Shown here: one piece after another, positions 34,435 to 52,120 of the stretch | Position numbering within the stretch: the first letter of the stretch is position 1 | Layout of the letters: every line of letters starts with the position of its first letter | NCBI RefSeq assembly: GCF_000003815.2 | Contig: NC_049981.1 | Location: 25,655,836 to 25,719,835, forward strand | Length of the DNA: 64,000 bases | Source: Branchiostoma floridae | Lineage: Eukaryota; Chordata; Leptocardii; Amphioxiformes; Branchiostomatidae | Direction of reading: 5' to 3' | Position numbers and translations under genes: made by a program | The notes under the pieces: model-generated | The model's input: only the letters and a program-made list of their open reading frames with translations | What the model was told of the DNA's origin: nothing | Databases searched by the model: none

Positions 34435-34445
34435 AAAATGGCGGA
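34435..34445 (+). promoter_or_regulatory. YY1-like motif overlapping the TTC12 start codon
   Basis: AAAATGGCGGA covers the ATG. This is the known position-specific YY1 element of vertebrate 5' UTRs and start sites. It also supports the start choice. Confidence 0.45.
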
Positions 34446-37400
34446 CAAAAACACTTCGAAAGAAGAACTGGACAAGTTTCTCCAAAATGTGGACGATATC
34501 CGTAAGTATAAAGCCTTCTAATAACGTAGTTGTTAATATTACACGATGGAGTTCTTTTTTTATGATAATCAACGCTAACGCGCTAACGTCAAACTGACGT
34601 TTCACACTTATTTTGTGTGATGCGATGTTGTATTTTTTGGGGAGGGGGGCATCGATGCTTGCGGAAGTTTCTAGACTTTTCGACACCAAGACGTTTCGCC
34701 GTCAGGACGTTTCGTCGTTAAGAGGACGACTAAACCTAACCTCAATACTAATGCAGATTCAGCTACAAACAGTGGCTTAGATGTATCTACAATAGAGAGG
34801 ACGAAAGTTAAAAAGAAAAGGGACAATATACTGAATTTCAGAAGTTACCTTGATACCTCGATACCACATCCAGGAGAGAAGGCTTCAGCCTGTTGTGTCC
34901 TGATCTTCGCTCTTCACGTGACGTACAAGTTGGGTTCAGGTACCACCAACTCACTGACCATTCCAAATGGTCTCGACTTTTTGGCCTGACAGTTATGGTG
35001 TTGAGTCAGTGAGCCGACAGGGTTCGATTCCCGGGAGCCAGGAGACTGTTTCTTCTCGCCTTTCCTAATGGTTCAACCGGGAAGGACACCTACACTCTTT
35101 TTGATAAGTTATATGAAGAAGCGTCATGTTTCACCTGATGACCATGTTGGTCTGCTTCTGTTCCTATTCTCAGAGTCGCAAATATACAAAAGTAACGGTC
35201 TCCTCTGTCAGCACTGGAACACCAGTGCTGAAGTGGTCGTCAGCACTGGAAGTCCAGTGCTGAGCCGGCGTCAGCACTGGAAATCCAGTGCTGAGGCAGC
35301 TTCAGCACTCGAAGCCCTCCTATCAGCACTGGAAACCGAGTGCTGAGACTACAATCAGCACTGGATTTCCAGTGCTGACGACATTTCAGCTCTGGAAATC
35401 CAGTGCTGACAAATATTCTGCACTGGAAACCGAGTATAAAATGTATAAAGTTGGTGAAAAGAACTTACATTCTGTAACAAAATGTAAATGGACAACTGTA
35501 TTATACAATGTTTTTAAATGATGCTTCTTTGCCGCACAAGCAGAATGTGTCGTCCACCTGTAACTACCTATTCTTTGTAAAAAAAAAACAAACAAGCGAT
35601 CTCTTTACCACAAAGATAGACCAACTGTTAGTTGTCTAACTCTGACTACCTATTGTTTTTTAAATGATGCTACTTTGCCGCACAAGCAGAATGTGTCGTC
35701 CACCTGTAACTACCTATTCTTTGTAAAAAAAAACAAGCGATCTCTTTACCACACAGATAGACCAACTGTTAGTTGTCTAACTCTGACTACCTATTGTTTT
35801 TTAAATGATGCTACTTTGCCGTACAAGCAGAATGTGTCGTCCACCTGTAACTACCTATTCTTTGTAAAAAAAAGACAAGCAATCTCTTTACCACACAGAT
35901 AGACCAACTGTTAGTTGTCTACCTCTGACTAAAAAGACACTACTTTGCCACATGTAGATATGTGATTTGTTGATTTAAAATTTTCGTATCAATTGACCAA
36001 AAGAAAAGAAACTTGAGTGCCATTAACTGTATACACAATTAACAATATCACAAGTGTCTACTCTAGTCTAAAGCTAGTAAAAGCTAGTGCCACGCAAGAT
36101 CTGCTTTGAGATTAAATAACACGCACAGATATACCTAAGTCTAAAGGAAATAACACAGACAGCCGTACAGACGCATGCTACTAGTACACGAATATTACGT
36201 TCAGCACTGGAACGTCCCAGTGCTTTAATTATAAACGTCAGCACTGGAAGCCCAGAGCTGAAGTTTTTACAGCACTGGTCTTCCAGTGCTGAAAAGTTCC
36301 CGAGCACTGGTAAATCCAGTGCTGAACCCGTTACTTTTGTATATCAGCACTCGGTTCCAGTGCTGACGGCGGTTTCAGCACTGGGTAACCTGTGCTGAAT
36401 AACCTCTGCCGCGAGTTCAGCACTGGTACCCGAGTGCTGACGGCAGTTCAGCACTGGAAAACCAGTGCTCGGAGAAGTTCAGCACTGGAAATCCAGTGCT
36501 CGCATTGGGTTCAGCACTGGAATTCCAGTGCTGAGGGAGCTTCAGCACTCCAACAAGGCCGTTCAGCACTGGAAAACCAGTGCTGACGTTTCTTCAGCAC
36601 TGGAAAACCAGTGCTGAGGCCGATTCGACCCATTGATTCAGCACTGGAACACCAGTGCGGAACCCGTTACTTTTGTATACTTGCCTCAGAGTCCATCATC
36701 AAGGGGATGGCATCAGGAGATACTGAGACCCAGCAGAAGGCTTGTCAGGCTGCAGACGAGAGACTGGGGAAGATCGGGAGGAGACCGCCTGTGGACAACA
36801 CTGGAGTCAACAGAACTGTCGTCAACCAGAGAGCCTTCGACGAGCTGAGCAGGGGGCAGCAGCAGGTACTGTACATCAGGAAATATTCACGGTTACTGTA
36901 TCTTTTTTTAAAGTTTACAGCTTTTGTGATCACCTTTCCACTTACTGTGAACTCAGCACACCTGTGAGTATGTTATTAGCCTTTGTTGTTTATTAACTTT
37001 GTATGTTAACTTTGTATGTCTATTTTGTAGCTAGTAATCTGTGGTTTTTGTTACTTTTCAACTACAAATGTATAAAATTATATTCAAAGTTGCTGTGAAA
37101 CCTTTATTTGCTGCAAAGTTTTAGTTAAATGACTTAGTCTTTATAGGTAATATGAATAATTTGAAAATTAGACATTTTTATACATTTTTGTGATCATTGT
37201 TATATTTGGTTATATTTAATGTTCGTAATATTCATTGTATTACAGGGACCTGAAGCTACAGGAGAAATGGGTCAAGGTATTGATGATGCATTATTGATTA
37301 TTGCTGTACAGTCAACAGAATACAATACATTAAATTCATTCAATTTATATTTTGTTTCATGAAAAATATAACCAAGGCTTAAGAAGTGATATTACTTGGC

Positions 37401-40400
37401 ATCATTTTATTGGAGATCATTCATTATCTATTTGAATGAATTTCTCAGAAACATTGTGGTATGATAATTCATTCAGAACAATAAACATGAATGTGTGGTA
37501 TGTCCATTTATTGCTGTAAAATCTGCATGTATGTATGTATGTATGTATGCATGTATAAATGGACTATGTTACAGGAATGAAAGATGATGAATTAAACACT
37601 CTTAGAAACAGTAATTGTGTGATACAACTTAACTTGAGGACTTGATCTCACGGTAGGAGGGTTCAGTTCACAGTTGAAATAATGTTACAGTAACTGTAGT
37701 ACATGTACTTGAATACTTTGGAAAGATACAAACGTATAATCGCTGGGAATTCATCACCTCAAAAATGGTGAAAATAAAACCATGGTGAACATTACAAGAT
37801 GTACAGTGAGTTACCCCTGTCTACCTACAGAAGCCTTCATGGACTTCATTGAGAAGGACGCAGCTGAACGAGCAGCAAGGAAGAAGGAGCAGAAGAAGGA
37901 GGCCACAGTGCTTAAGGAGAAGGGCAACGAGGCCTTTAAGGCAAGAGACTTCCAGACTGCCGTGGACTTCTACACTCAAGGATTGGAGAAGCTGAAGGAC
38001 TTTAAGGAACTGTGGACCAACAGGGCTCAGGTAGCTACTACAAAAATTTTTTCATCTTCTGTGCTTTACATCGCTGGTTAGAATAGATTTTAATAAGACT
38101 TGTATAATCAAGTAAAAAATTTTGAAAAATAATTGGACATGTTAGTAAGCTTTTTTTTAACAAATGAAACAAGTGCCTGGTGTTTGACAAGGCTCATGTA
38201 GATAGCTTCAAAATGGAGTAGAGTTAAACATAAATGGTTCAAATTTGACACATTATTTGCCGTGATATTAGAAGCCGCTACCGTGCACCTGCAATAGGTT
38301 GGTTATACTTAAATAGTAGACAAGTTCAGATACAGACAGGGTGGGTGGTTTAAAGATTTTTTTCATTGCGTTGTTGTGCAACAGGCATACATCAAGCTGG
38401 GACAATATGATGAAGCTCTCTCAGATTGTGATTGGGCAATGAGGGTGAGTATGTCTCTACGTGTACATATATCATACTGGTTGTAATGTATTACTATTTT
38501 TACATTGTTATAAAGTCAATATAAAAACATACTGTTGTTGGCTAATGTTCTTAGACCATTTCATAACAATAATTATAAGCAAATAGTTGATTATACAATC
38601 ATGAAAATTTGGCTTAAGTGTAAAACATGTCAGACTTGTAGTTAAGTAGTAACGTTGATAATTTGTACAATTGTTATCTTTATCTGTAGTGTGATGACAA
38701 GTATGTGAAGGCGTACATCCACAAAGGCAGGGCACTGGTAGCCAAGAAGGAGTATGACAAGGTAAGACATATCCATGAAAAGTTATCACAGGGTGTCTGA
38801 GGTTTCATACATGTATGCACAATTCTTCTTCTGTCATTTTTTACCAGGCAGTAACAAAATTTAAATGTAGGTATTCCTTCTCCTACCCCATTGGGGTCAT
38901 TGCCTGATGCATGTCATTTTTACATTGCTGCACTGTATTTGTTGGATCACTACTTTTCAATCAATAATCGTTTGCTGGCATCATTTGAAAATAACTACCG
39001 ACCAACCCTATATTTTTCATGACTGTAGCCAGAAACATGTTAAGTTCTTGCACTTCTTAATGCAGGCCTTTGAGACTTACCAAGAGGCACTGAAGGTAGA
39101 TCCAAAGCAAGAAAGAACTGTCAATGGTGAGTCAAAAAAGAATATTTGCTGATGAAAATATTTGTTCTAAATCCAAATCTGCCATAATTTATGTAAGGTA
39201 ACAAATCCAGTGATGGAAACAAGTCTTTTAAAGCATTAAGAAATTTGTGTGAAAAAGAATAATTGTATTATTTTATTCATACTTTTTCATATTTACTGTG
39301 CTAGATAATATGATAAATCCATCAAATCTACACTCATTTTGCATCATGATATTCTCAATAATTATGTGTGTATCTACACATGTAATTATCCATGTAATAG
39401 ATAGATAAATGAATGCATCACTGATATGACAGAAACAAAATTTGACTTTATTTAAAAGCATATTCATGAAGTCTTTTCTTCCCAGCTTACATCAAAGACC
39501 TGCAGACAGCGCGAGCAGTAGACCAGGAGGAGGAGAAGGCTAAGGAACTGATTGAGCGTGGAGCCGAGGACGCAGATTGCGTGCTGGGGCTCATCAAGAG
39601 GATCAAAAAGCGGAACGAGCCAGTGATATTCTACACTGGAGGACTGAAGATGCTCTATGTGTACCTGAAGGAATGCACAGAAGACAGTGAGCACAAATTT
39701 TGTCCTGTTTGCACCTTTGTTTATTCATAAGAAGCTGACAAATCAGCCTGCTAGCTGATTTTCATTGAGATCATGAGGGAAAGTACAGTGTGTAAGGGTC
39801 TGATGAAATATGTATGAAAGGTGTACACTGTACATGTATTGATTGATAAAGTCATATTCAAACATAGAGTGGAATCCTGACACATACATTTGTACATGGT
39901 ACCACAAAGAACATACTATAACATGGTGAAAGTTGGCATATGGTCTTTGTCCGTTCCTTCTGGTTGTTTCCGTTGCTGTAAGGATCTTTTTAAGGAAGTC
40001 TTGTTCTTTAATTTGTACTTTTTTTCGTAAAACAAGAATGAAATGGTAAAGAGGAATGTGATAATGTAGGAAGATGTTTGTGGAATGAAAGTATTTGTCA
40101 ACTTCATGTTACTTTTCATCTGTTGCTGAAGTTGATTCATTGTTTAGCCATCCTCTATTTATTCACGGTTCCACTTCCGGTTCTCTTTGAAAACATCCTT
40201 CCCACATTTTTCTGTGTCTAGCCTCTAAGGCCAGTGCCTGTCTCCAGTTTTATAGCCCTTGCACCTTACAGGTCATTACCGTAAACTGCCAATCCTCTGG
40301 TATTGGTGTGTGTTCAACTCCCATACCCTTTTCAAAAGCTAAGCAAAGCAGTATGTAACATTTTTCAAGTCATTGATATGACCCAGACAAGGCTTGAGTG

Positions 40401-43400
40401 ACTGAGCCACTGCATGCATGACAAACACTCTACGCCCTCCTCCATTGCACCAGTTCACACTTCTTTGTTCTCCCACTCCCGTCAGTGAGCAACCCATAAG
40501 GATGGAGCATAAACTCATGGGGATGGTGTCTGGGCTGATTGTGTTTTTTAATGAAACTGAGTTGACGTAATATAATTTAATAATCACCAGGTGTATTTTG
40601 CCAGCCAGTAGGTACCCAAATGAGTAATGAGGCTGATTAACGTGGTCGAGGCACCTCCTCGAGCACGGGACCCCCGTTTTACGTCCCTCCCGGAAGACGA
40701 TTTCGTGGAAAGCTTCGTGAGGCTACAGCAATCCGGTCAGTCCTTGGTTGGTCCCCCATCCAAGTACTATCCGGACCGCGCGTTGCTCAACTTCCGAGAT
40801 CGAGGGATCGGGTGTTCCAACGCGCCTCGCGGCCGTAGATAATTTACATTGTCTGTGTGAGTTTGTGTTGAATGTACATGTCATGTCTTCCACAGAACAT
40901 GCTGCCCAGACAGTGTTCCGCACATGTGGGGGATTCAAGTTGATTTCTGATGTTCCTGTTATAGCAAGGTATGTGAAATGATGTCTGGTGCAAGATGAAA
41001 TACACTTTGTTTTAAACTGTCCCTTTTACGATCAGGAAAGAGGGGAAATCTAAATAGAAACCATCAAATTCCATCCTGATTTTTCCACCTTTACAGACAA
41101 ACAGAAAACCACTCCTCTCAACATCACAGAACCCACACAGTACAGAAAAAGTGCCATCTTTCATCTTCCACTGCTTATAAAAAAGACGTCAAATACAAAT
41201 AGTTACAATTAAGAGTCATCATTTATTCAATAGTCAAATGTTATGTTCTTCATTGTCATTTTCCTTTGGGCATGAATTTGCGCTAAACATATTCTCATCA
41301 ACTTATTGATAATAATATCAGTGTTAGATTGTAGTACTCCTAGGCCATGCTTAAAATTTAACCATCTTGCAATTAGCTGTATGGCTCCTGTATTGGTTTT
41401 ACAAACATTTTTTCATGAATGTCTTGTTTCAGATGTATGAATGCTCCTGCAAATCTGACAGAAGAGGAAGTTGACATGTGTGAGGTGTTGTTAAAGTTGT
41501 ACAGGGAGGCAAACAAGAACAATGGTAAGATGTGTGGAAGTATTATTATTTGATTTTTCTCAACTTATCGATATTATGATGAACCAGAATAAACTGCTCT
41601 AGAGCCTGTCTGCTACCTCCTTGGGCGTAATGATTACTGGACCGTGCATTTGGCATTCTGCATACCTCAGTACCACATGATATTGAGAAGTATTATTAGT
41701 TCACAACTGAGGAAGATAGTTTGAGTACTAGCTTAAAGTTGACTCGTTTAAGCATTTGGGTATGGAGCTAGAAATATAATCTTTGTTAGGTATAATCTTT
41801 GATAGGAAGTTTGTTTTTGAGACCACAGTCATAGACAAGTCCCTGTCCAGCATGATAAAGCAAATCTCATCAACCTGAAATCCTGTGTCCAATTTTTGGA
41901 TGTGTGACATGAGCATAGAACACTGTCGTTATCCTTCCTCCACATTGGTGAACCAGAAACACTCCATATCGATGCCAGGCATGCCGGAGATCCTGACTAA
42001 CCTGCTTCACACCAGCCAGAACGATCACACACAGGAGTTTAACACACTGTCTCTGTCCTTCCTCCACAGTGGTGAACCAGAAACACTCCATATCGATGCC
42101 AGGCATGCCGGAGACCCTGACTAACCTGCTTCATACCAGCCAGAACGATCAGACACAGGAGTTTAACACATTGTCATTATCCTTCCTCCACAGTGGTGAA
42201 CCAGAAACATTCCATATCGATGCCAGGCATGCCAGAGATCCTGACTAACCTGCTCCATACCAGCCAGAACCATCACACACAGGAGTTTAACACACTGTCT
42301 CTGTCCTTCCTCCACAGTGGTGAACCAGAAACACTCCATATCGATGCCAGGCATGCCGGAGACCCTGACTAACCTGCTTCATACCAGCCAGAACGATCAG
42401 ACACAGGAGTTTAACACATTGTCATTATCCTTCCTCCACAGTGGTGAACCAGAAACACTCCATATCGATGCCAGGCATGCCGGAGATCCTGACTAACCTG
42501 CTCCATACCAGCCAGAACGAAGCCCTGTCTGACGCCTGCGTAGCCATCATCAACGAGCTATCCCAGAATGCAGAGGGCAGGACGGCTGTAGTCAACAGCT
42601 TTGATACCACAAGGTCAGCATAGAACTGTATGCAAGGCAGTCAGGGATAGTAAACTTCAACTCTCTGCAGCTGACCATAGCCTGGAGTCCAAATTTTTGG
42701 CGAGTAGCGACCTTCGGGAGCGGAACAAAGCTAACAAGGCTGGACTCCAGGCTAAGCTGACCACATATTCAGATGCTTCAGTCTGGAGACACAGGCGTAC
42801 ACACATTAATTATCATCATCATCAGCTCTGGACTTGTACTTTGAAATTTTATTCATTTGTATACTCCCTTTCTTCTTTCTCATCATTTTCCTTATTTCCT
42901 CCACTTTCGAGAGCCATGAAAACTTACCTCTCACTTATTTTCTCTTCCTTCCTGTCCTCTGTCCTTTCCTGCCTCCTTTTTCCTTTTAGTGTTATCAGCA
43001 GCAAATACCGGTAAGAGCAATCTTCTGCCCTTTTCCAGGCTGATGCAGGGTTTGTTGAAGTTCATGAACATCGGTTCTTCTCTGTCGGCTGCCAATGCTG
43101 TAGGAACCCTCAACAACCTCGCTATTAATAAAAAGTAAGTGTTCTATACCCTTTATTTATTTATTTGTTTTTGATACCTCAGTAAAAACAGAGACATTGT
43201 ATTCCGTTGTTGTGTTTGTTTCTTTGTTACCTTTGCCAGAATGGCTAAGGTTATGCTTTAGGCTTGTGAGTCTGTCTGTCTGTGTGTTAACAGTATAACT
43301 CGAGAAGCCTTGGATGGATCCCGATGATATTTGGTAGGTGGATAGGGGTCGGGAAAACGAAGGTCAAGTTCGATAATGGGCCCCCTAGCGGCTTGCTAAG

Positions 43401-46400
43401 GTACTGCAGCAGAACCTCAATATTTGATATCTCGTGTTCTGGACATGCTGTGGTTATGATTTTTGAGTGGTAGATAGCCCTCGAGGCAGAGAGTAAGTAC
43501 TATAAGTTTGGACCCCCTAGCGGCTTGTTTGGAACTGCAGTCGCCGATTTCCTTTCAAACTTTGGACGAGAATAACTCGAGAACGTGTTGATGAATCATC
43601 ACGATTTTTGGTATGTAGATAGCCCATAGGACTTTCAAACTTGTCACATGTATAGATGAGAAAGAGAGAAATATCAATGCATGTTAATTATGCAAATGAT
43701 GACCTCATTTGCATAATTAATGAGAAAATATAAACGCATTGATGTATCGTCATGGTTTTTGGTATGTAGATAGCCAAAGGGAAGACTTACATGATGGAAT
43801 TCTAATCATGCAAATCAACAGCTAATTTGCATAATTAATTAGGAAAATGTGTAAATCCACTGCATTCCTTTATAGGACTTTCAAACTTGTCACATGTGCA
43901 GCTGAGAAAGACAGAAATATCAATACAAATCAATTATGCAGATGATGATCTCATTTGCATAATTAATGGAAATATGAAGGTGCTGACGGATCGTCATGAT
44001 TTTTGGTATGTTGATAGCCTAAGTAAAACGTTACATAATGAGATACCAGTTATGCAAATTAACAGCTAATTTGCATAATTAATGAGGAAAGTTGATAAAT
44101 CCACTGTATTCCGTGATAGGACTTTCAGACTTGTCACATATGTAACTGAGAAAGATGGCAGAGAGTAAGAGGTGTATGTTTGGGTCCGCTAACATCTTTT
44201 CTTGAACTGCAGGAGCCGGTTTAGTTTCCTACTTTGAAAGATAATAAGTCAAGAAGGGATTGAATGGATCATCATGATTTTTGGTATGCTGACAGCTTAA
44301 GTGATGCTTGATACAATTTAATATTAGTATGTAAATAGGGATCTAATTTGTATCAGCAATGGCAAATGTTATGAACCAACTCCAGGCATATAAAATAAAA
44401 TATAATGAGTAGCACATTTATGTCTTCAGACATCATTCTACATAACAAACCTGGTTTATTTGGCAAAGGTATGTGTTCGTGGAACTCTAGTTTTTTATTT
44501 GACTTAAGTGTGAGTCCACAGAGATGTGAATATTGCACAGTGGCAGCATGTAAGGCAGAGATTGTGTTAGGATTCTTGAAGAATTTGTTTGGATGAGGTC
44601 CAATGATGTTGTACTTTTGAGCCAGGATGACATGGCTACACTGACACAGTAATGTCAGGCCGTTAGGGGTACCCACTTAGAGCTTGTTTTTATTTGTTGT
44701 GCTGATTTACAAGAATATAGATTCTGTAAGGAAATACTGTACAATCATTGATTTATTTTTGCATTAACTTAATTTAGTGAAAGGAGGTCACTGCAAAAAC
44801 CATTGCAAACAAAGTACTATAGTACCAATGATTTTTTTTCCTGATAGAACTAAAATGGATACTGTTTATTGTTTTGTGATTAAACTAAGCATTTCTCTTG
44901 TACTGACAGATTCCTTATGCAGTTCAGGGACAGTTTTGAGGAATCTTTGCTGCCGGCTTTTGAGAACATTATAGTACGTTTGTTTCCTTGTTATATACAT
45001 AACCCGCCAGTTTTGTACAGTAAGTAGCACCAGGTCCTGTCACACCTAACCTTTGCACAACTAACTGTAAACATTGGTAAAAGCTATGTGTACGTTACAG
45101 GGAAACAGTTTGGGATTCCACAATCTTTTTGCAATTCGCAATTTTGCAATTAACTGGTTTCTGTATCTAGCAAGGATGCCCCAACAGTGCAAGTAGTTCT
45201 TGGTACTTGCAGTGATGACTTTCTCTTCTTTTGTGAGGTTTTGGTTCTCTTCAAGGTGTGACAGTGTACTGATGTAGTTGTATGTTCTCGGTGCAGACGA
45301 GGTGTGCAGAGATCAGTCTGACCGTCGTGCCCAGCTGTGTGTCCATGGTCAGTAACATGGCAGCGGACCCAGTACTCAGGAGATGCATGTCCGCACGGGC
45401 GCAGCTCTGGGAGGCCTGCTTGCAAGCCATGGTAAGGGGTGCAGTGTCTCTTATCATCTGTAAGACACGCTTATCTTAAGACATACATGGTCAGTAACAT
45501 GGCAGCGGACCCAGTACTCAGGAGATGCATGTCCGCACGTGCACAGCTCTGGGAGGCCTGCCTGCAAGCCATGGTAAGGACAGCAGTGTCTCTTATCATC
45601 TGTAAGACACGCTTATCTTAAGAAATACATGGTCAGTAACATGGCAGCGGACCCAGTACTCAGGAGATGCATGTCCGCACGGGCACAGCTCTGGGAGGCC
45701 TGCTTGCAAGCCATGGTAAGGGGTGCAGTGTCTCTTATCATCTGTAAGACACGCTTATCTTAAGACATACATGGTCAGTAACATGGCAGCGGACCCAGTA
45801 CTCAGGAGATGCATGTCCGCACGGGCACAGCTCTGGGAGGCCTGCTTGCAAGCCATGGTAAGGGGTGCAGTGTCTCTTATCATCTGTAAGACACGCTTAT
45901 CTTAAGACATACATGGTCAGTAACATGGCAGCGGACCCAGTACTCAGGAGATGCATGTCCGCACGTGCACAGCTCTGGGAGGCCTGCCTGCAAGCCATGG
46001 TAAGGACAGCAGTGTCTCTTATCATCTGTAAGACACGCTTATCTTAAGAAATACATGGTCAGTAACATGGCAGTGGACCCAGTACTCAAGAGGTGCATGT
46101 ATTTATGGGCACAGCTCTGGAAGGCCTGCCTGCAAGCAATGGTAAGGGGTGCAGTGTCTTCTCTCACCAACTCTAAGACATTACAAAATGCATTATCAGT
46201 AACATACTCAGATCAGATGCATTTCTGTATGGGCACAACTCTGCGAAGCTATTGCAAAACTTCTTTCATTTGGAGAAGTACATACAGTGCAGCTCTTATG
46301 TACTGGAAACTACATGACAGTCATGTTATGTAATGATGTATAATTTTAGACCTATGGGGAATGTTGTATCTAAGGGTGTGTGTTAATCAGTTTAATTGTG

Positions 46401-50798: not shown

Positions 50799-52120
50799 CT
50801 TGTTTGTTTGTTTGTTTATTTTGATCTCCAATTAGAGTTACAATTATTATCATAACTCTATTCTTCCTGGAGTCGTCCATCAACATTACAAATTAAAACA
50901 ATCAAATAACATGAAGTCAACAAAAGTACATGTATACAGTATGACACGAGAAGAACTGAAGTGAAATGATTGCAAAAATGTAACATAAACTCAGTAAACG
51001 GAAGTAATGAGGAGGGGTCAGAGGTCAAAGGCTATAACATAAATAACAAAACATCAATCGTTGTAACAATAAATAAAATAACCAAGTGGGTGTAATTAAC
51101 AAAGAAATCATCCACAAACACAATTAATAATTGATTTGCAGCTACATCATATCAAGAATCAAATTCGTCTACCACCAATCCTGCAAGGGTTTGTTTGTGT
51201 TGATTTTAGTCCGGATCCAATTTATAATGTGTGTTTTGAAAATGGAAGGTGAGGTTGCTTTCATTTGTGGCGGGAAAGTGTTATATGACTTGGTGCACCT
51301 ATACAAGAAGGTCCTTGTCAAAGCTGCAGTTTTTGGCTTAGGTAATCTAAAACCACCACTTGTCGCAAGACGAGTGCTGTGCTCATGTGTGCTACTAATG
51401 TTTTCTAATCTACTATACATAGCTCTCGGTTCCTGAGATACTAATAGCTTGTTGAACATAGAAAGAGTGCCTGTGTACAATCTTTCTTTAACTGTTGGCC
51501 ATTGTAGTTTACTATGCATATAATCAATGTTTTCATTATAGCGTGCATTTAGAACAAGTCTGGCTGCCCTATTTTGCAGAATCTGTAAATTGTTCAAGGA
51601 GGTCTGAGGGCAGGCAGATAACAAGCAAGCACAATAATCCAGATGGGATAACACTAGTGCCTGCGTTACCACCTTTAGCGGTCCATCAAAAAGCAGATCA
51701 CTTGATCTCTTAAGCATTGCTAGTGCACCAGTCATCGTATTCAGGACTTTGTCCGCTTGCTGTGTCCATGTTAAGTACTGATCTATTATGAAACCAAGCA
51801 GTCTTGCTTGAGTTACTTGTTCAATACTTTTACCATTTAAAGAAAGCTGTAAGTCTGGGTTGTTCCTTAATCTGTGGCGACTTCCCATCAAAATCGATTT
51901 AGTTTTCTCCACATTTAATACTAACTTGTTTGCTTGTACCCAGTCCCAGATACGGTTAAGTTCGGCCTGAAGTGTGTTTTGTATCATAGAGACGTTTGGG
52001 CCAGCAGCAGGAGTGGAGTCATCAGCATACAACTCGATGTTACAGTGAGTTATAGCAGTGGGTAAATCATTGGTGTAAATACAAAAAAGTAGTAGCTCTA
52101 GGACAAGAGGTTAGGAGTTT
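50799..52120 (-). mobile_element. 5'-truncated LINE (Jockey/CR1-like) with reverse transcriptase C-terminus
   Basis: The open frame begins before the annotated ATG: LFCIYTNDLP (RT motif B' region, about 52060-52090) leads into the active-site YADDS and on to the stop at 51169. Downstream segments ENVEKTK-like (LNVEKTKSILMGSR), LGFIIDQYLTW and YDLCACLLSACP-like (LDYCACLLSACP) are typical of Jockey/CR1-type elements. A stop at about 52118 marks the truncated 5' end. The 3' UTR runs to a (ACAA)n tail at 50801-50817. The frame is intact over about 310 codons, so the insertion is fairly young. It lies outside genes, downstream of TTC12. Confidence 0.8.

Follow-up and report, generated by a model that had tools for sequence, protein, structure and literature searches.

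An apparently non-coding DNA transposon of 1507 bp was found to sit exactly on the splice acceptor of exon 2 of a gene that we take to be TTC12, in a 64,000-nucleotide stretch of the Branchiostoma floridae genome (hereafter the window). The 9-bp target site duplication (TSD) of this insertion carries the end of intron 1 and the start of exon 2, and the acceptor is present at both edges of the element. As a whole, the explanation that a young non-autonomous transposon landed on the TTC12 acceptor and duplicated it, and that the right copy is spliced, is considered here as well founded and probable. The element would be a member of a young cut-and-paste family moved in trans by a transposase encoded elsewhere, and a 9-bp staggered cut would have taken in five bases at the 3' end of TTC12 intron 1 and four at the 5' end of exon 2. 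Repair of the gaps would have copied these nine bases to give CTCAG/AGTC at both element edges, and intron 1 would have been lengthened from 672 to 2188 nt with splicing at the right copy. The placement on the acceptor would be a lucky hit slightly favoured by a weak taste of the family for the target NTYWSWRAN, and the insertion presumably survived because the duplication rebuilt the splice site. Events of this type are already known, with introners and transposon-made introns as related cases in the available parts of the published literature, and it offers a clean example of how a TSD can render tolerable an insertion that would otherwise break an exon.

The insertion and the TTC12 gene model

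The element spans 35178-36684 of the window (plus strand) and is flanked by two perfect copies of CTCAGAGTC at 35169-35177 and 36685-36693 (both plus strand). These are the only two occurrences of the 9-mer in the 64-kb window, where its reverse complement has zero occurrences. The terminal inverted repeats (TIRs) are 21 bp long and agree in 20 of 21 positions, the left one (35178-35198, plus strand) being GCAAATATACAAAAGTAACGG and the right one (36664-36684, minus strand), read as reverse complement, GCAAGTATACAAAAGTAACGG; the left TIR is further supported by its matches in the genome. A sequence-only reading of the same DNA had proposed a 1507-bp element with 21-bp TIRs of one mismatch and a perfect 9-bp TSD, and the letter-by-letter check confirmed all of these. 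When the joined flanks were searched against the B. floridae assembly, a single locus was matched by two segments of the query, 1-137 and 129-309. These overlap by exactly 9 bases, and thus the overlap corresponds to the nine duplicated bases. This search matched the TTC12 locus alone, and no empty allele or other haplotype was seen in it. The longest stop-to-stop frame wholly within the element is 112 aa. With TIRs at its ends and TSDs of constant length, this apparently non-coding element is a cut-and-paste DNA transposon, as its relatives, the TIR matches and the TSDs at other loci also show. The relatives, the TIR matches and the joined-flank result lie well outside what chance would produce. 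Internally, it contains 2.9 copies of a 141-bp tandem repeat (35511-35931, plus strand), the number of which differs among family members. In addition, 16 bases of the right end recur as CCGTTACTTTTGTATA at 36328-36343 (plus strand), which is 336 bp inside the element. Of 28 loci, 25 have this internal copy in the corresponding position, when 4 mismatches are allowed, and it is perhaps the relic of an older end.

The coding part of TTC12 exon 1 (34438-34501, plus strand) starts with the ATG at 34438 and ends in phase 1 before the donor GTAAGT. Joining its last base to 36690 produces the open frame MADKNTSKEELDKFLQNVDDIQSIIKGMASGDTETQQKA..., which continues through exon 2 (36690-36865, plus strand; donor GTACTG). 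The frame is extended with matching phase by exon 3 (37246-37276, plus strand, GPEATGEMGQ; acceptor TTACAG/GGACCTG, donor GTATTG, phase 0 to phase 1) and by exon 4 at 37831. The earlier claims that the TSD spans the intron end CTCAG together with the exon 2 start AGTC, and that the insertion thereby duplicated the acceptor, hold in the sequence: CTCAG/AGTC stands at both element edges, and the exon border is supported by the open frame. The predicted peptide gave TPR-type matches with Pfam models below their cut-offs, and among PDB chains it matched Hop, SPAG1 and RPAP3, among others. The gene name is our assumption from the similarity to the human protein, the library searches having returned TPR-type matches only. 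The sole literature match for TTC12 in amphioxus opens, in the part available, on dopamine receptors.

Two identical acceptors in TTC12

The two identical acceptors lie 1516 bp apart. The left copy still carries the original pyrimidine tract, GTCTGCTTCTGTTCCTATTCTCAG (35150-35173, plus strand), as had been noticed at the outset, and the element now lies 3' of it. Upstream of the right copy (36685-36693), the new tract TTACTTTTGTATACTTGC consists mostly of the right TIR read on the plus strand. The view that this right copy supplies the frame-keeping acceptor, with the TIR forming its tract, agrees with the open join of exon 1 to 36690. The right site is weak, yet its tract made of TIR and duplication, TTACTTTTGTATACTTGCCTCAG, is usable. 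On a rough score built on base frequencies of human sites, the left acceptor obtained 4.2 bits, which places it among the highest-scoring 1.5% of the window's AGs, and the right acceptor 2.2 bits, and an AG within the element at 35212 reached 4.8 bits. The right acceptor is lower than all eight clear, hand-chosen TTC12 exon starts (2.9, 3.3, 3.7, 4.2, 4.2, 4.3, 7.2 and 9.2 bits); the unclear anchors had best AGs of 0.6 to 7.9 bits, or repeat copies of -2.4 to 1.6 bits.

The higher score of the left acceptor with its whole tract, and the rank of the right one below the eight clear sites, would fit a damaging allele, in which the strong left site still wins, 1.5 kb of element precedes exon 2, and carriers have less TTC12 or none. 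Use of the left acceptor indeed closes the frame after 78 codons. We regard such a loss as unlikely, though well within consideration. In exon definition, a splice site needs a partner at normal exon length. The canonical donors AGGTRAG, GTAAGT and GTGAGT are all absent from the 1507-bp element, leaving the left site partnerless at that length, but the right site and the exon 2 donor are intact. Given the 78-codon stop and the absence of a canonical donor in the element, the right site is the one expected under exon definition. Use of the right acceptor thus appears likelier than that of the left one, since the latter has no canonical donor inside the element. We infer splicing at the right copy because the exon 2 donor follows it 176 nt downstream and the left copy opens onto 1.5 kb with stops. 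Mixed splicing with a lower output is quite possible, and judging from the reading frame TTC12 can probably still be read despite the insertion. If carriers and non-carriers exist, the choice between identical 9-mers with different tracts would be directly measurable.

Other repeats were noticed in and around TTC12. A 124-bp tandem repeat of 4.8 copies (41920-42520) straddles a TTC12 exon start. Within its unit, the acceptor-like TTCCTCCACAG precedes coding-like sequence (..SMPGMPEILTNLLHTSQN), ahead of an exon continuing EALSDACVAIINELSQ; acceptors have been multiplied within TTC12 at this place also. Similarly, a 142-bp tandem repeat of 5.7 copies (45344-46159), the unit of which holds exon-like MVSNMAADPVLRRCMSARAQLWEACLQAMV, donor-like GTAAGG and an intron start, has multiplied donors in the gene. 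In intron 1, a tRNA-like B-box stretch GGGTTCGATTCCCGGGAGCC at about 34980-35045 possibly belongs to a SINE, and no tRNA was called there by ARAGORN. On the minus strand, an open frame of 313 aa (51169-52110) resembles by eye a part of a non-LTR reverse transcriptase, with a YADD motif.

The transposon family, its possible transposase and its targets

The genome assembly of 513,431,437 bases in 431 contigs was searched for relatives of the element. The DNA search produced 979 first-look candidates; the 40 that were scored included full-length copies of 91-97% identity, with matches ending at the element borders or a few bases off. A TIR pattern allowing up to 2 mismatches had 270 matches in the genome as compared with 2 for the reversed control. 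Furthermore, a 9-bp TSD with at most one mismatch was present in 39 of the 48 loci examined (perfect in 34 of the 39), a sample that favours good copies as it combined 28 loci from among the best DNA matches with 20 stretches from the TIR list, the latter selected mostly for two ends lying close. The TSD was missing in 9 of the 48, in some of them since an end is absent or beyond the stretch. In 28 loci the TSD length was left free between 6 and 12, and 9 was the best length in 23 of the 24 loci having a pair, the exception (L008) being without a good duplication. In a larger set of 78 loci, 29 lacked a pair and 10 represented insertions that had been counted before. The 39 TSD-bearing copies range from 290 to 9863 bp. 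The check named in the sequence-only reading is therefore positive, as this genome contains further copies that share the ends and are flanked by 9-bp duplications. The name LanceleTn, used for an amphioxus MITE, gave no match in a non-exhaustive literature search for a description of the family.

When the ends of the TTC12 copy were compared with the consensus of 16 selected copies, 10 of 1028 sites were different (0.97%); the values for the 16 range from 0.58% to 8.52%. In the Chinese lancelet, the SNP rate within one diploid genome is 4.39%, as given in the part of that report available (PMC4284660). A distance of about 1% against this rate suggests that the insertion is young enough to segregate, and it is probably recent and polymorphic.

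A transposase with these ends was not found among the copies and loci read. The 9863-bp copy (L059 39-9901; G000:C7:7614930-7624870) has the same TIRs and palindromes and a 9-bp duplication, GTCTGTGTG, which is weaker evidence than those of other copies as it sits in a GTCT simple repeat. This copy was considered as the autonomous partner and set aside, since nine of its open reading frames, a part of the total, gave no convincing Pfam match when scanned (two weak matches, E 0.069 and 0.095). Nested within a 4198-bp copy (L060) is a frame of 828 aa that by eye resembles a reverse transcriptase, and the inserts of L017, L026 and L028 contain frames of up to 152 aa.

The length of the TSD bears on the superfamily. 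As described in the available part of a 2019 survey, the TSDs are 8-11 bp in Mutator-like elements (MULEs) and 9 bp, with a minisatellite, in Rehavkus (PMC6446971), and an excerpt on Tm1 gives 9-bp TSDs with tandem-repeat TIRs (PMC3169594). For KDZ elements, which are likewise DNA transposons with long TSDs, the text available gives 8 bp in Zisupton and a Dileera family and 7 bp in two Kyakuja families (PMC12730594). The TSD here is 9 bp and thus argues against KDZ and fits MULE, Rehavkus and Tm1. An autonomous partner of Mutator-like type, possibly a Rehavkus or Mutator/Foldback element, is accordingly put forward as a tentative candidate, which we hold to be possible with some reserve. Besides the TSDs, the repeat-rich ends agree with it. 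The genome contains 27 MULE domain matches, and one of them is enclosed by a candidate 4-kb MULE (L080 1037-5039; G000:C9:6717800-6724600) with the 9-bp duplication GTGTGTAGC and ends of 20 bp, 16 matching. Lancelet MULEs with 9-bp duplications may thus exist, as this candidate illustrates; in the part of the 2019 survey available, MULE transposases were not found in B. floridae (PMC6446971). Against a Mutator-like partner, the TIRs and palindromes of our family were absent from all six loci fetched of the 27, none of the 27 matches lay by eye within 10 kb of any of the 100 TIR places listed out of the 270, and the nine frames of the 9863-bp copy yielded no transposase. The family shares with Rehavkus and Mutator/Foldback Tm1 the 9-bp TSDs, the repeat-rich ends and many non-autonomous size variants. 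It differs from both in having a TIR of just 21 bp followed by spaced palindromes and not head-to-tail units of about 14 bp, from Tm1 in its weak target preference, none being seen for Tm1 in the excerpt available, and from Mutator-like elements generally in that no MULE transposase was found with these ends in the six loci fetched of 27.

The target preference was examined in 39 target sites with both strands pooled. Position 2 favoured T (35 of 78, P 0.003) and position 3 favoured C (28 of 78, P 0.001), both P values being uncorrected for the positions and bases tried, and the trends become weaker further inward. The overall pattern is the symmetric NTYWSWRAN, which accommodates TCAG, and CTCAGAGTC agrees with it save at position 8. 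Acceptor-like targets were defined by an AG within the TSD on either strand, with the expectation derived from randomly chosen positions in these flanks. With a threshold of 4 bits there were 4 among 39 (L021, L078, L004 and the TTC12 copy) as compared with 0.68 expected, and at 2 bits or more 6 of 39 as compared with 2.25. If the TTC12 copy, the starting point of this count, is set aside, 3 remain as compared with about 0.66 (P about 0.03, by hand).

The excess of acceptor-like targets and the one copy lying exactly on an acceptor could be taken as signs of an introner-like family that prefers splice sites and remodels introns as a way of life; introners with TIRs and TSDs of 3-9 bp are described, in the text available, as taking splice sites from the TSD (PMC9860276). 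Like them, the present element has TIRs and a TSD that provides a splice signal. We nevertheless consider an introner-like way of life highly improbable, since the excess includes the prompting copy, and may follow from the weak base preference. L021, L078, L004 and also L003 showed no long open frame with a donor after the target in the stretch read (98 bases only for L078). Moreover, the element has no canonical donor, the copies vary from 290 to 9863 bp, and at TTC12 an existing intron was lengthened, no new intron being made. No second true exon border was found among the target sites in the flanks read, and only the TTC12 copy is placed on one. A 290-bp copy (L067, 3.3 bits) was examined as a second acceptor hit and rejected; 60 open codons follow TTATAG, but there is no GTRAG donor for 821 bases. 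This copy lies in L085 (G000:C4:23135900-23139600), in which a plus-strand frame from about 2913 near L067 resembles by eye the beginning of RNase H2 subunit A, CCLGIDEAGRGPVLG.

With some 200,000 acceptors of 9 positions each in 513 Mb, a hand estimate gives 0.3-0.4% per insertion for such a hit without preference. We read the TTC12 hit as the result of a weak base preference overlapping the acceptor motif together with survival through the rebuilt site, and this weak preference offers an explanation, open to testing, for the encounter of such elements with acceptors. A comparable case is Doc1053 in GM26034 of Drosophila sechellia, where a transposon-made intron derives from a retrotransposon according to the part of the report available (PMC3296678). 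In both cases, splicing makes a gene insertion tolerable and duplications lie at the edges or close to them, but a retrotransposon and a new intron are involved there.

Phased palindromes inside the ends

Inside the TIRs, the element contains 22 sites of the palindromic 24-mer TCAGCACTGGnnnnCCAGTGCTGA, of which 19 have both half-sites. The left subterminal array (35208-35440) consists of 8 sites, 6 with both half-sites, the centres being 21 or 31-32 bp apart. The right array (36201-36661) has 14 sites, 13 with both half-sites, and its spacings are close to multiples of 10.5 bp, save for a single one of 37 bp. Over both arrays, the centre spacings are 21, 31-32 and 42-44 bp and the single 37 bp. 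For a period of 10.5 bp, the left array has a coherence of 0.97 and the right array one of 0.80, and the pooled best period in the range of 6-16 bp is 10.45-10.5. A null in which each of three spacing classes was shifted at random gave P about 0.001, a value that serves as a guide only because tandem duplication within the arrays weakens independence. This arrangement suggests that the palindromes are likely a one-face binding array for a dimeric protein, either the transposase or a helper, and the phasing provides a testable clue to end recognition.

A sister copy (L028 582-1986), which adjoins the family member L028 and is 71-73% identical over the two longest stretches that match, is flanked by a separate 9-bp duplication, AATTTTTTG. 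Its two blocks have coherences of 0.90 and 0.72 at 10.5 bp, and its pooled best period is 10.45 with a coherence of 0.90; the centre at 1363, which overlaps 1359, was omitted from the pooled period and kept in the coherence per block. Thus, the phasing is retained in the sister although the letters of the sites have changed. A further proposition, that the family represents an undescribed type of transposon in which one-face arrays of dimeric sites are combined with a taste for NTYWSWRAN predisposing to acceptor landing and duplication, is regarded as doubtful. If true, it would imply a polymeric transposase or helper bridging the ends, and at TTC12 nature would have set up an experiment on the doubling of an acceptor, one that is probably still segregating.

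Selection for hairpins, as RNA or cruciform, was considered for the palindromes and set aside, as the changes in the arms showed no significant compensation. In the window element, compensated positions numbered 3 against a permuted mean of 1.10 (P 0.09), and in the sister 6 against 9.06 (P 0.93). In the absence of significant compensation between the arms, half-sites for a protein fit the palindromes better than hairpins.
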